NCBI GenBank assembly: GCA_003134035.1
Contig: PLAE01000157.1
Location: 1-45,334 of the forward strand
Reading direction: 5' to 3'
Source: Candidatus Velthaea versatilis
GTDB lineage: Bacteria; Vulcanimicrobiota; Vulcanimicrobiia; Vulcanimicrobiales; Vulcanimicrobiaceae
DNA length: 45,334 nt
The notes beneath the pieces were generated by a model that was not told the DNA's origin, did no database searches, and was given only the letters and a program-made list of their open reading frames with translations. Positions 6,079 to 41,419 of this stretch are shown one piece after another (the stretch's first letter is position 1; every line of letters begins with the position of its first letter). The position numbers were made by a program, and so were the translations under genes.

Positions 6079-6180
6079 GCTTGCGCCTCCCGCAGCCTGC
6101 ATTTCGGTCTGGACGGCTCATTGTCCCAGCCGGTTTCCGGTATGTCGATCCGGTCTTCGGCGCGTAGGGGGAGAGCAGGA

Positions 6181-6204
6181 GCGTGTCGGTTTTACCCGAC
6201 ACGC
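6181..6204. terminator. 9-bp stem hairpin downstream of the antiporter gene
   Basis: GCGTGTCGG and CCGACACGC form a perfect 9-bp stem with a 6-base loop. It lies between the antiporter stop and the Uma2 start, past the double-hairpin repeat. It could terminate the antiporter transcript, but no U-tract follows on either strand. Confidence 0.35.
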
Positions 6205-6211
6205 GGCGACG

Positions 6212-6260
6212 GGCGGCTTGCGGCGCAGCCGCAAACGCGAAGGATCGACGAAGTCGATCC
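6212..6260. repeat. Double-hairpin intergenic element, copy 1
   Basis: Two adjacent perfect hairpins: TTGCGGC-GCA-GCCGCAA, then GGATCGAC-GAA-GTCGATCC, joined by ACGCGAA. The first hairpin and linker recur almost unchanged in the two tandem copies at 40.85-41.02 kb, while the second hairpin keeps its ends and GAA loop but differs inside the stem. This copy lies directly after the antiporter stop codon. It resembles a REP/BIME-type dispersed palindromic element. Confidence 0.75.
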
Positions 6261-6262
6261 AC

Positions 6263-7435
6263 TTAGTCCGCCGGCGCGAGTCGCAGTCGCGAAATCACCG
6301 GGCCGATCGCGAGACCCTGGGCGACGAGCGTGATGAGCACCGTTCCGTAGACCGCGTCGACGAGTTGTTCGCGGAACGGAACGTTCGCAGGCAAACCGAT
6401 GACCAGTGCCACCGACAGAGCGCCGCGCATTCCCGATAGCGCGATGACCGACCGCCAGGCGGGCGGGACGCCGCGGCTCGCGAGCGGCAGCACGACATAG
6501 GCAACCGTGATCCGGGCGAACGTGATGAAGGCCAGGGTGAGCAGCACCAGGCGCGGTTCGGCGATGATTTGCCGGAACTCGATGCGAAATCCCATCAGCA
6601 CGAACACGAGGACGTTGGCAAGAAAGGCGATCGCGCTCCAAAACGCGTTGACGTCGACGGTCCCAACGAGCGACGGGAAACGCGGAAACGCGCGCATCGA
6701 GATGCCGACGACGACGGCCGCGAAGATACCCGAAAGGTGGAAGTGCTCGGCCGCCAAATAGGCGCCGAACGCTGCAACGATCGTACCGGCAACTTGCAGC
6801 TGCGATCCGTCGTTGTCGCGCAGCAGCAGTGCAACGAGCGCCGCCACCACGAAGCCGATCGCCGCGCCGCCGAGCGAGGTCGAAAGCGCCGTCCATGCGA
6901 TTTCGAGCGGCGTCGGCGGCCCACCGTGTCCGGTGAGGATTCCGATGACCACGCCGTAGAGCACGATCGCGGCGCCGTCGTTGAGCAACGACTCGCCCTC
7001 GACGATGGTCGCGAGATCGGTCGGCACGCTCAGCCGCTTGAAAACCGCCAACACCGCGATCGGATCGGTCGCGGCCAGAATCGCACCCAATAGCAAGGCG
7101 GGAATGAACGGCATCTGTCCAGTCAGCGCGAGTCCGGCGCCGACGAATCCCGCGGTGATCAGTACGCCCGGAATCGCCAGTACCGCCACCGGCAGCCAGC
7201 GGCGTTTGAGCGCGTCGGCGCGGACGTTCCACGCTGCCTCGAAAACAAGCGCCGGCAGAAAGACGAACAGCAGCGCGGGTGCGAACGCCTCGGACGACGG
7301 GATGTCGATCGGCGCCGCGACGATCAGCAGCGCGACGACATAGGGGATGCCGATTCGATCCGCGACGACGCTGACGACGACGGCGACCGCGAGCAGCGCG
7401 ACGAGCGCGGTGACCTGATGCTCGATCTCGTTCAT
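6263..7435 (-). CDS. Na+/H+ antiporter, CPA1 (NhaP) family
   Basis: Membrane cation:proton antiporter of 390 aa with about 11-12 hydrophobic segments. CPA1 hallmarks are visible in order: FLPALVFEAAWN (cation-pathway helix), GAILAATDPIAVLAVFK with the essential TDP/A region, and EGESLLNDGAAIVLY with the conserved acidic and Asn-Asp residues. It would use the proton gradient to expel Na+ or K+ and regulate internal pH. The long cytoplasmic tail found in some NhaP proteins is absent, so this is a minimal transporter. The stop is followed at once by a double-hairpin repeat, and the start is preceded by a 15-bp tandem repeat. Confidence 0.92.
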   Translation of the reverse strand: MNEIEHQVTALVALLAVAVVVSVVADRIGIPYVVALLIVAAPIDIPSSEAFAPALLFVFLPALVFEAAWNVRADALKRRWLPVAVLAIPGVLITAGFVGAGLALTGQMPFIPALLLGAILAATDPIAVLAVFKRLSVPTDLATIVEGESLLNDGAAIVLYGVVIGILTGHGGPPTPLEIAWTALSTSLGGAAIGFVVAALVALLLRDNDGSQLQVAGTIVAAFGAYLAAEHFHLSGIFAAVVVGISMRAFPRFPSLVGTVDVNAFWSAIAFLANVLVFVLMGFRIEFRQIIAEPRLVLLTLAFITFARITVAYVVLPLASRGVPPAWRSVIALSGMRGALSVALVIGLPANVPFREQLVDAVYGTVLITLVAQGLAIGPVISRLRLAPAD

Positions 7436-40250: not shown

Positions 40251-40784
40251 CTACGCGCCGGCGACCGCTTCGAGCGCGGCGCCCAGCGCTTCGACGGTCG
40301 GCTCGTCCTCGAACGGCTGGCCATTGATGAAAAACGTCGGCGTTCCCTCGACGCCGCTGCTCTCGCCGCGCTCGATGGCCGCGTCGATCTCGGCGCGGTA
40401 GTGCCCGGACCCGAGCTCCCGTTCGAACCGCTCGAGGTCGCCAACGCCCGCCGCCGCCGCATAGTCGCGCAGCTTGGTGCTGCCCAGCGCGCGCGCGTGA
40501 CCGAAGAGTTGATCGTACATCGGCCAAAAACGGCCTTGCGCGCTCGCGGCTTCGGCGGCCTCGGCGGCGGCTTCGGCGTGGGGGTGGATGTCGCGCAGCG
40601 GAAACTGACGGAAAACGAAGCGCAGCCGCCCGGCGAAGCGTCCTTCAATCTCGGCGACGACGAGCCGCGCCTTCGCGCAGTAGGGGCACTCGAAGTCGCC
40701 GTACTCGACGAGCGTGAGCGGCGCATCGGCCGGACCGCGAGCGTGGTCGGAGGCAAGGATTGGGGACAGCGTGATTTCTTCCAT
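40251..40784 (-). CDS. DsbA-family thioredoxin-like oxidoreductase, cytoplasmic
   Basis: A 177-aa thioredoxin-fold protein with an alpha-helical insertion, of the thioredoxin_4/DsbA-like kind. The active site is CPYC (Cys33, Cys36; GDFECPYCAK) and the cis-Pro loop is GTPTFF. The helical insert QGRFWPMYDQLFGHAR is typical. No signal peptide is seen from the chosen start, which has GAGGG 3-4 bases upstream, so it probably works in the cytoplasm or is exported in an unseen way. A start 57 bases upstream is open but adds an unrelated N-terminus. The two tandem double-hairpin repeats lie just upstream. Confidence 0.88.
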   Translation of the reverse strand: MEEITLSPILASDHARGPADAPLTLVEYGDFECPYCAKARLVVAEIEGRFAGRLRFVFRQFPLRDIHPHAEAAAEAAEAASAQGRFWPMYDQLFGHARALGSTKLRDYAAAAGVGDLERFERELGSGHYRAEIDAAIERGESSGVEGTPTFFINGQPFEDEPTVEALGAALEAVAGA

Positions 40785-40840
40785 AGCCCTCGTCGTGTTC
40801 CACCAAGGGTGGCGGGCAAACCGTCGCTCCGGCATATTCA

Positions 40841-41017
40841 CCCCTGGACCAGGCGGCTCGGCCCGAACGTGACCGCGGCTTGCGGCGCAGCCGCAAACGC
40901 CAAGGATTCCGGCGAAGCCGGAATCCTGCTACCCCTCAACCAGGCGGCTCGGCCCGAACGCGACCGCGGCTTGCGGCGCAGCCGCAAACGCCAAAGATTC
41001 CGGCGAAGCCGGAATCC
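40841..41017. repeat. Two tandem copies (91-bp period) of the double-hairpin element
   Basis: Copies at 40841-40931 and 40932-41017 differ at only a few bases in their shared part. Each has a leader CCAGGCGGCTCGGCCC, then hairpin TTGCGGC-GCA-GCCGCAA, linker ACGCCAA, and hairpin GGATTCCGGC-GAA-GCCGGAATCC (in copy 2 its first base is A). The core is shared with the single copy at 6.2 kb. They fill the divergent gap between the DsbA-like and PadR genes. Confidence 0.9.
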
Positions 41018-41053
41018 GGCCGCCTGTCTGCGAATCGCCGCCATCCTCGAACG

Positions 41054-41419
41054 ATGAAGATCACCGCCGATGCCGGACTGCCGCCGCGCGGAACGCCGAA
41101 AAACTACCTGTCCGCTTGGCTTTTGGTGATGCTCAAGCGTTCGCACCTGCACGGCTATGAGATTATGAAAGAACTGCGCGAGGAGTTCGGCATCGCCTGC
41201 GACCCCGGGACGCTCTACCGCACGCTGCGCCAACTCGAGGGCAACGCGCTCATCGCCTCGCACTGGGACGCGCACGATCAAGGCCCCGCGCGCCGCGTGT
41301 ACGAGTTGACCGATCGCGGCCGCGACGCGCTCGAGCGCTGGAACGTCACGCTGCACGAATATCGCTTGAATCTCGACGCCTTCTTTCGCGTGTATTCGGC
41401 GGGCGGGTCGGCGGGATGA
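41054..41419 (+). CDS. PadR family transcriptional regulator
   Basis: A 121-aa winged-helix regulator. The PadR signature is clear: LSAWLLVMLKRSHLHGYEIMKEL, then DPGTLYRTLRQLEGNALIASHW and RRVYELTDRGRDALE, the wing and following helix. The C-terminal helix is short, as in the PadR-s2 type. The ligand is unknown. It overlaps the MBL-fold gene by 4 bases (ATGA), which makes the downstream hydrolase and acetyltransferase its likely targets or partners. Confidence 0.92.
   Translation: MKITADAGLPPRGTPKNYLSAWLLVMLKRSHLHGYEIMKELREEFGIACDPGTLYRTLRQLEGNALIASHWDAHDQGPARRVYELTDRGRDALERWNVTLHEYRLNLDAFFRVYSAGGSAG

Follow-up and report, generated by a model that had tools for sequence, protein, structure and literature searches.

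The double-hairpin unit at positions 6212-6260 of the window (the whole 45,334-nt stretch of DNA that was analysed) is part of a three-hairpin element that is most probably a REP-like, non-autonomous palindromic repeat, with CTAG ends that steer surviving insertions to stop codons. Its high copy number, its extragenic position downstream of genes and its palindromic, modular build bear out the REP-like character proposed in a preliminary description of the window, and the broad-sense hallmarks of REPs (palindromes of 20-40 bp, high copy number, extragenic location) were all found. The broad REP definition fits, and these repeats are best called CTAG-bounded three-hairpin REP-like elements of Eremiobacterota.

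Architecture of the element

Rereading of the sequence at 6212-6260 gave GGCGGC, hairpin B, the linker ACGCGAA and hairpin C, the same unit structure as previously described. The full element, at ~6175-6266, comprises three hairpins in the order A-B-C. Overlooked before were hairpin A (6181-6204), the CTAG at the ends and the fact that the element directly abuts a stop codon. The features of this copy and of two others in the window are as follows.

6175..6178, + strand: left boundary, GCAG here and degenerate; the consensus left end is CTAGGA, with CTAG in most full copies
6181..6204, + strand: hairpin A, GCGTGTCGG-TTTTAC-CCGACACGC
6205..6217, + strand: constant spacer, GGCGACGGGCGGC
6218..6234, + strand: hairpin B, constant within the host genome, TTGCGGC-GCA-GCCGCAA, with a C(GNA)G triloop
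6235..6241, + strand: constant linker, ACGCGAA; the family form is ACGCSAM, conserved across genera
6242..6260, + strand: hairpin C, variable and covarying, GGATCGAC-GAA-GTCGATCC
6263..6266, + strand: right boundary, TTAG here and CTAG in many copies; 6263-6265 are the TAA stop of a minus-strand gene
6263..7435, - strand: gene abutted at its 3' end by the element, Na+/H+ exchanger family (PF00999)
40840..40929, + strand: second copy, of the ACGCCAM subfamily, with B at 40880-40896, linker ACGCCAA and C at 40904-40926 (GGATTCCGGC-GAA-GCCGGAATCC)
40931..41020, + strand: third copy, a tandem repeat of the second, with B at 40971-40987 and C at 40996-41016

The copies at 40840-40929 and 40931-41020 are 94% identical, with the C stem GGATTCCGGC. 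It had been claimed that the second stem differs between copies but stays perfectly paired; the difference holds, but perfect pairing does not, as the third copy has A for G in the outermost pair of hairpin C. In the interval 40251-41419 of the window, this tandem pair is flanked by the gene of a DsbA-like thioredoxin and by that of a PadR regulator, which is divergent, a promoter-side placement that is unusual for the element family.

Detailed sampling covered 1.11 Mb of host sequence, in stretches picked partly because they contain elements. Full copies in this sample read CTAGGA(A/G)TGTGTCGGGTTTACCCGACAC (A) - GCGACGACGGGCGGC - TTGCGGCGNAGCCGCAA (B) - ACGCGAM - GG..GNA..CC (C) - (A/T)(C)CTAG, and subfamilies carry ACGCCAM linkers or the alternative B hairpins TCGGGC, TCGGCC and TTCGGC. 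The great majority of loops on the element strand read C(GAA)G or C(GCA)G, and loops of the C(GNA)G type give unusually stable DNA mini-hairpins. A copy consists of two or three adjoining hairpins. Copies may stand alone, follow one another in tandem (L114, window 40840-41020) or form arrays of hairpin B (L071), and the tandem copies at L114 have one CTAG-like junction in common. The array, at L071:4658-4791, runs head to tail through about five 28-bp units, TTCGGCGAAGCCGAAACGCCACCGCGGC, with a B-type hairpin.

Copy number in the host genome

The host genome (G000) is a 4.74-Mb metagenome-assembled genome (MAG) of a soil bacterium of the Candidatus Eremiobacterota, in 276 contigs and 90% complete. 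Hairpin B, TTGCGGCGCAGCCGCAA, has 45 exact copies in it, and its reversed control none. Within the window, this 17-mer occurs three times exactly and gives 10 matches at up to 3 mismatches, compared with 0.86 ± 0.93 in shuffled sequences; the 28-mer TTGCGGCGCAGCCGCAAACGCNAAGGAT has 85 copies in the host genome at up to 3 mismatches, with none for the control. A covariance model of the double hairpin matched the host genome at least 151 times at E ≤ 0.01, so the dispersed recurrence reported from the window had been understated. These counts exclude chance as their source. No element copies were detected in the viral contigs and plasmids that were searched, and Rfam 15 gave no match above the gathering score. 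Assembly gaps (NN) fall inside element hairpins at L061, L066, L079, L069 and L074, which means that the MAG contains copies that were assembled wrongly or left unresolved.

Elements often end at stop codons

Gene starts and ends were called with a simple codon-usage caller. Of 90 C-hairpin clusters, 50 had the C end of the element no more than 10 nt from a stop codon, compared with 28 of 1,800 random intergenic placements (1.6%), and the distance from C end to stop had its mode at 1-2 nt. TAG made up 34 of the 50 stops next to C ends but only 287 of 987 in the host sample overall. Against a background of 0.24%, a CTAG was found at most 7 nt from the C end in 24 of the 50 elements at stops and also in 13 of 39 that have no called stop; at the A end, it was present in 19 of 32 copies. 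CTAG is avoided about five-fold in the 1.11-Mb sample (664 observed versus 3,548 expected), and it spans the stop codon in 50 of 679 genes without an element (7%). Since CTAG marks C ends with no called stop as well, it belongs to the boundary of the element or to its target, and the placement at stop codons follows from this. In the window, antiporter orthologs from relatives have the same C-terminal end region without the element (every ortholog shown), which argues that the element was gained behind an intact gene.

Genes flanking 125 clusters were convergent in 37 cases, in tandem in 59 and divergent in 9. The element thus shares with REPs a preference for gene 3' ends and for convergent or unidirectional neighbours. 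It is found, among others, behind dnaA, rpsJ, nusG, mreB and carA.

The outer hairpins A and C, set around the constant middle hairpin B and bounded at both ends by CTAG, form a unit that, we propose, multiplied non-autonomously by copying into or beside CTAG. The recognised form would likely be a folded single strand with C(GNA)G triloop hairpins. Because CTAG contains the stop TAG on either strand and is avoided elsewhere, insertions would survive mainly at gene ends, and the element would supply or keep the stop codon of the adjoining gene. The 3' UTR of that gene would then begin with the hairpins of the element. By analogy with REPs, a transcribed hairpin 1-2 nt past the stop would probably affect either the 3' end of the mRNA or the ribosome as it terminates.

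Stable hairpins directly past stop codons, many of them between convergent genes (37/125), might also be intrinsic or bidirectional transcription terminators. We give this reading hardly any credence, as neither of the outer hairpins is followed by a run of T and there is no match in Rfam. By a strict terminator criterion, which found too few terminators anywhere to be informative, 2 of 74 genes followed by an element qualified, versus 2 of 232 others.

Covariation of the stems

The variable stem of hairpin C had been taken to imply compensatory change and selection for structure. Among 61 copies chosen by hairpin B alone, 34 had a perfect triloop stem of at least 6 bp within the next 60 nt, compared with 0.4 in shuffles. 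MAFFT alignment of pooled stem lengths put the pairs out of register, and stems of the 8-bp and 9-bp classes were therefore aligned separately. In the 9-bp C stems, 94% of cells were paired, 28 cells were changed on both sides (8.0 ± 2.0 in shuffles), and the covariation score was 0.388 (0.136 in shuffles and at most 0.069 in slid controls). The 8-bp C stems had 18 two-sided changed cells versus 7.6 ± 3.7 in shuffles. Stem variation with complementary changes, another REP feature, is thus present, and the finding that the preliminary description had said would count against it, namely only three copies and no covariation, is clearly not what the genome contains. Counting within the two length classes upholds the compensatory change, but covariation alone does not prove selection for structure, as perfect stems also arise when palindromes are repaired by template switching.

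Such a mutational process, in which hairpin-templated repair or template switching perfects quasi-palindromes, is a somewhat unlikely sole source of the perfect stems, although it can operate alongside any other explanation. Mispairs have no strand preference, one copy carries an inverted loop (TTC), and at the sufT-like locus, inner stem and loop changed as a block between two species of one genus (GTTCGC-TTAC-GCGAAC versus GTTCGCG-TTC-CGCGAAC) and not by single paired substitutions. Together, the missing strand bias of mispairs and the block changes between sister species suggest that palindrome-perfecting repair may contribute; it does not, however, account for the position at stops, for CTAG at the ends, for the C(GNA)G loops or for a linker that stays constant. 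A preference for G-U among mispairs was absent on both strands (14 versus 20), so selection at the RNA level is not demonstrated.

The element in related genomes

Among named genomes in GTDB 220, the pattern occurred only in two further MAGs of Candidatus Eremiobacterota, which come from peat and palsa. When 99 genomes of the family were searched for the exact pattern, allowing up to 2 mismatches, the host gave 107 matches and three other genomes 1-3, with 0-3 per genome across the 98 other members. With the covariance model, we detected 8 matches in G019, 4 in G006 and 3 in G017, and lone, weaker matches in other genomes; weak matches in family f3 (E ~0.001-0.007) were judged to be chance or low-complexity hits. 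Approximately six related genera have a few copies each, in which the grammar GGC-[hairpin]-ACGCGAM-[hairpin] is kept and the stems are different. As far as searched, the CTAG-ended REP-like family is new for the phylum and was not found elsewhere.

A strict scan for this grammar gave 6 matches in G019, 4 in G006 and none in G008, compared with ~0.05 for permuted linkers. In G006, 3 of the 4 matches had flanking GGC and either adjoined a stop codon or stood in tandem behind one; the fourth (L254), without flanking words and 241 nt from a gene start, was probably a chance match. In the copies sampled from G019 and G006, the C end lay -2 to +2 nt from a stop, with the exceptions of L254 and of a single copy inside a tandem. 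The stretches were sampled partly because the model matched there. The sufT-like gene carries the element in G019, G093 and G006, which represent two genera; for rpsJ, this is so in G000 and G019. By a rough count, sharing between two genera is expected by chance ~0.02 times at sufT and ~0.2 times at rpsJ. That both genes carry the element in different genera would rarely be expected and speaks against random insertion alone.

These observations bear on a different reading, in which the element is a conserved functional 3'-end module of two hairpins joined by KTCGCGU and anchored at the stop, selected for translation termination or mRNA decay, increased in copy number in the host genome and spreading only secondarily. 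In its favour are the grammar [stop]-hairpin-KTCGCGT-hairpin-GCCGCC, which some six genera share although their stems are very dissimilar, the strict matches over permuted linkers, the close spacing from stops of all real sampled copies bar the inner tandem one, the two-genus occurrence at the sufT-like gene with remodelled stems and at rpsJ, and the housekeeping genes dnaA, nusG, mreB and carA that are followed by an element. Most orthologs lack it, however: 28 of 30 sufT-like loci that were cut out were without the element, as were most rpsJ orthologs and every antiporter ortholog shown. Moreover, copy number ranges from 0 to >150, some CTAG ends are not at stops, and the sharing at rpsJ taken alone has a chance expectation of roughly 0.2. 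We regard a conserved module as an unlikely main explanation. The same modest weight goes to its bolder form, in which the mRNA module (stop, hairpin, KUCGCGU, hairpin, GCCGCC) would be a lineage-wide regulator of termination or 3' ends in Eremiobacterota, with stems rewritten per genus around a fixed position and linker, and would also be a CTAG-bounded repeat that spreads without Y1.

Transposase search

The preliminary description had suggested movement by a RAYT-type transposase and advised a search for an associated Y1/RAYT gene. We searched for PF01797 (Y1) in the host genome and 59 relatives. The search recovered such genes in the controls, and also in f3, the sister family, but found none in the contigs of the 90%-complete host genome and only 2 positive genomes among 36 members of the same family. 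As the host genome is 90% complete, the absence of a transposase is not final, and the enzyme might have been lost, might be encoded in the tenth of the genome that the assembly lacks, or might be of an unrecognised kind. No transposase of the expected kind being found, mobility is inferred from distribution only, namely that the element multiplied as a mobile repeat.

A classical GTAG-type REP or REPIN moved by RAYT, the Y1 tyrosine transposase, is accordingly quite unlikely, since 34 of the 36 family members as well as the host lack PF01797 and the tag of the element is CTAG and not GTAG. The proposal does find some likeness in the HH heterodimer form, the structured spacer and the triloop 8-bp stems, as in REPs of S. 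maltophilia, and RAYT-like proteins are present in f3. Purified S. maltophilia TnpA-REP, moreover, retains cleavage on CTAG-tagged substrates, albeit weaker than on GTAG substrates (PMC8266576).

The CTAG, CTAA and TTAG flanks at both ends of the element would also suit a miniature inverted-repeat element that an IS5-like DDE transposase moves, duplicating a YTAR (CTAG) target. IS5 has the target preference YTAR, and the two ends have a weak likeness (CTAGG..TGKGTCG). This origin is nevertheless very unlikely: the host genome, 90% complete, had no match to PF01609 (DDE_Tnp_1), and the terminal repeats are weak, with ~10 imperfect bases where the definition of such elements calls for 15-30 bp.

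Comparison with known repeats

The closest counterparts of the Eremiobacterota element are the GTAG REPs, BIMEs and REPINs associated with RAYT (TnpA-REP), which are likewise short extragenic palindromes with covarying stems, short loops and high copy number. In the literature, REPs of both the GTAG and the CGTC type are short palindromes whose stems covary and which occur singly, as dimers or in clusters, <20 bp from 3' ends (PMC3733652), and S. maltophilia REPs have perfect 8-bp stems with 3-nt loops (PMC8266576). Like the element described here, GTAG REPs may be single, dimeric or tandem, have structured spacers and lie flush with gene 3' ends, and their GTAG termini often supply the TAG stop (PMC3733652). 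Unlike them, the Eremiobacterota element has CTAG at both sides, three hairpins with a constant middle one, a conserved linker (ACGCSAM) and a host genome in which no Y1 transposase was found. Two defining features of the GTAG superfamily are missing: the unpaired GTAG, GYAG, GTRG or GTMG tag, in place of which CTAG is followed by G(T/A)GG leading into the stem, and a RAYT/Y1 gene in the genome (PF01797 was absent from the 90%-complete assembly).

CGTC REPs (dRS3, RPE-4/RPE-6 and others) are also REP-like and mostly dimers, and no dedicated transposase is known for them (PMC3733652). They differ in having loops of 4-5 nt and AT first pairs, whereas the Eremiobacterota element has C(GNA)G loops of 3 nt and starts its stems with GG/CC pairs. 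The class is defined by a CGTC tag, an 8-9 bp stem starting from AT pairs, a 4-5 nt loop and a CCA tail, and there is no CGTC beside hairpin C.

A study cited in PMC12306157 is reported to show that REPs stall ribosomes and lower translation in E. coli when they lie within 15 nt of a stop. The Eremiobacterota hairpin likewise directly follows the stop codon; its sequence, however, is unrelated, it lies nearer the stop (mode 1-2 nt) and its function is putative. MITEs with a 4-bp CTAG/YTAR target duplication resemble the element in being non-coding, dispersed and bordered by CTAG on both sides, but the element has weak terminal inverted repeats, internal hairpins and no matching transposase found.

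REPs are among the commonest bacterial repeats, and both their need for RAYT and the reason for their closeness to stop codons are still debated. An element that has CTAG ends with no Y1 found, stems swapped between genera, and a linker and stop position that are kept makes these questions separable and testable. Palindromic CTAG ends offer a simple reason for insertions piling up at gene ends, and the grammar common to several genera points to recognition of the linker and the hairpin shape, not of the stem sequence.

A separate observation concerns a ~45-nt block, CGTCGCCCACACCCGGTATGCGGGCAACCGCATACGCGACGGCAA, that is identical in two genera (L211 ~1485-1530 in G006 and L195 ~1520-1565 in G043), whose surrounding DNA is otherwise ~65% alike. 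Rfam gave no match at the block. It contains a GCAA-loop hairpin, followed in L211 by a hairpin with a T run, and, judged by these sequence features, may possibly encode an undescribed small RNA.
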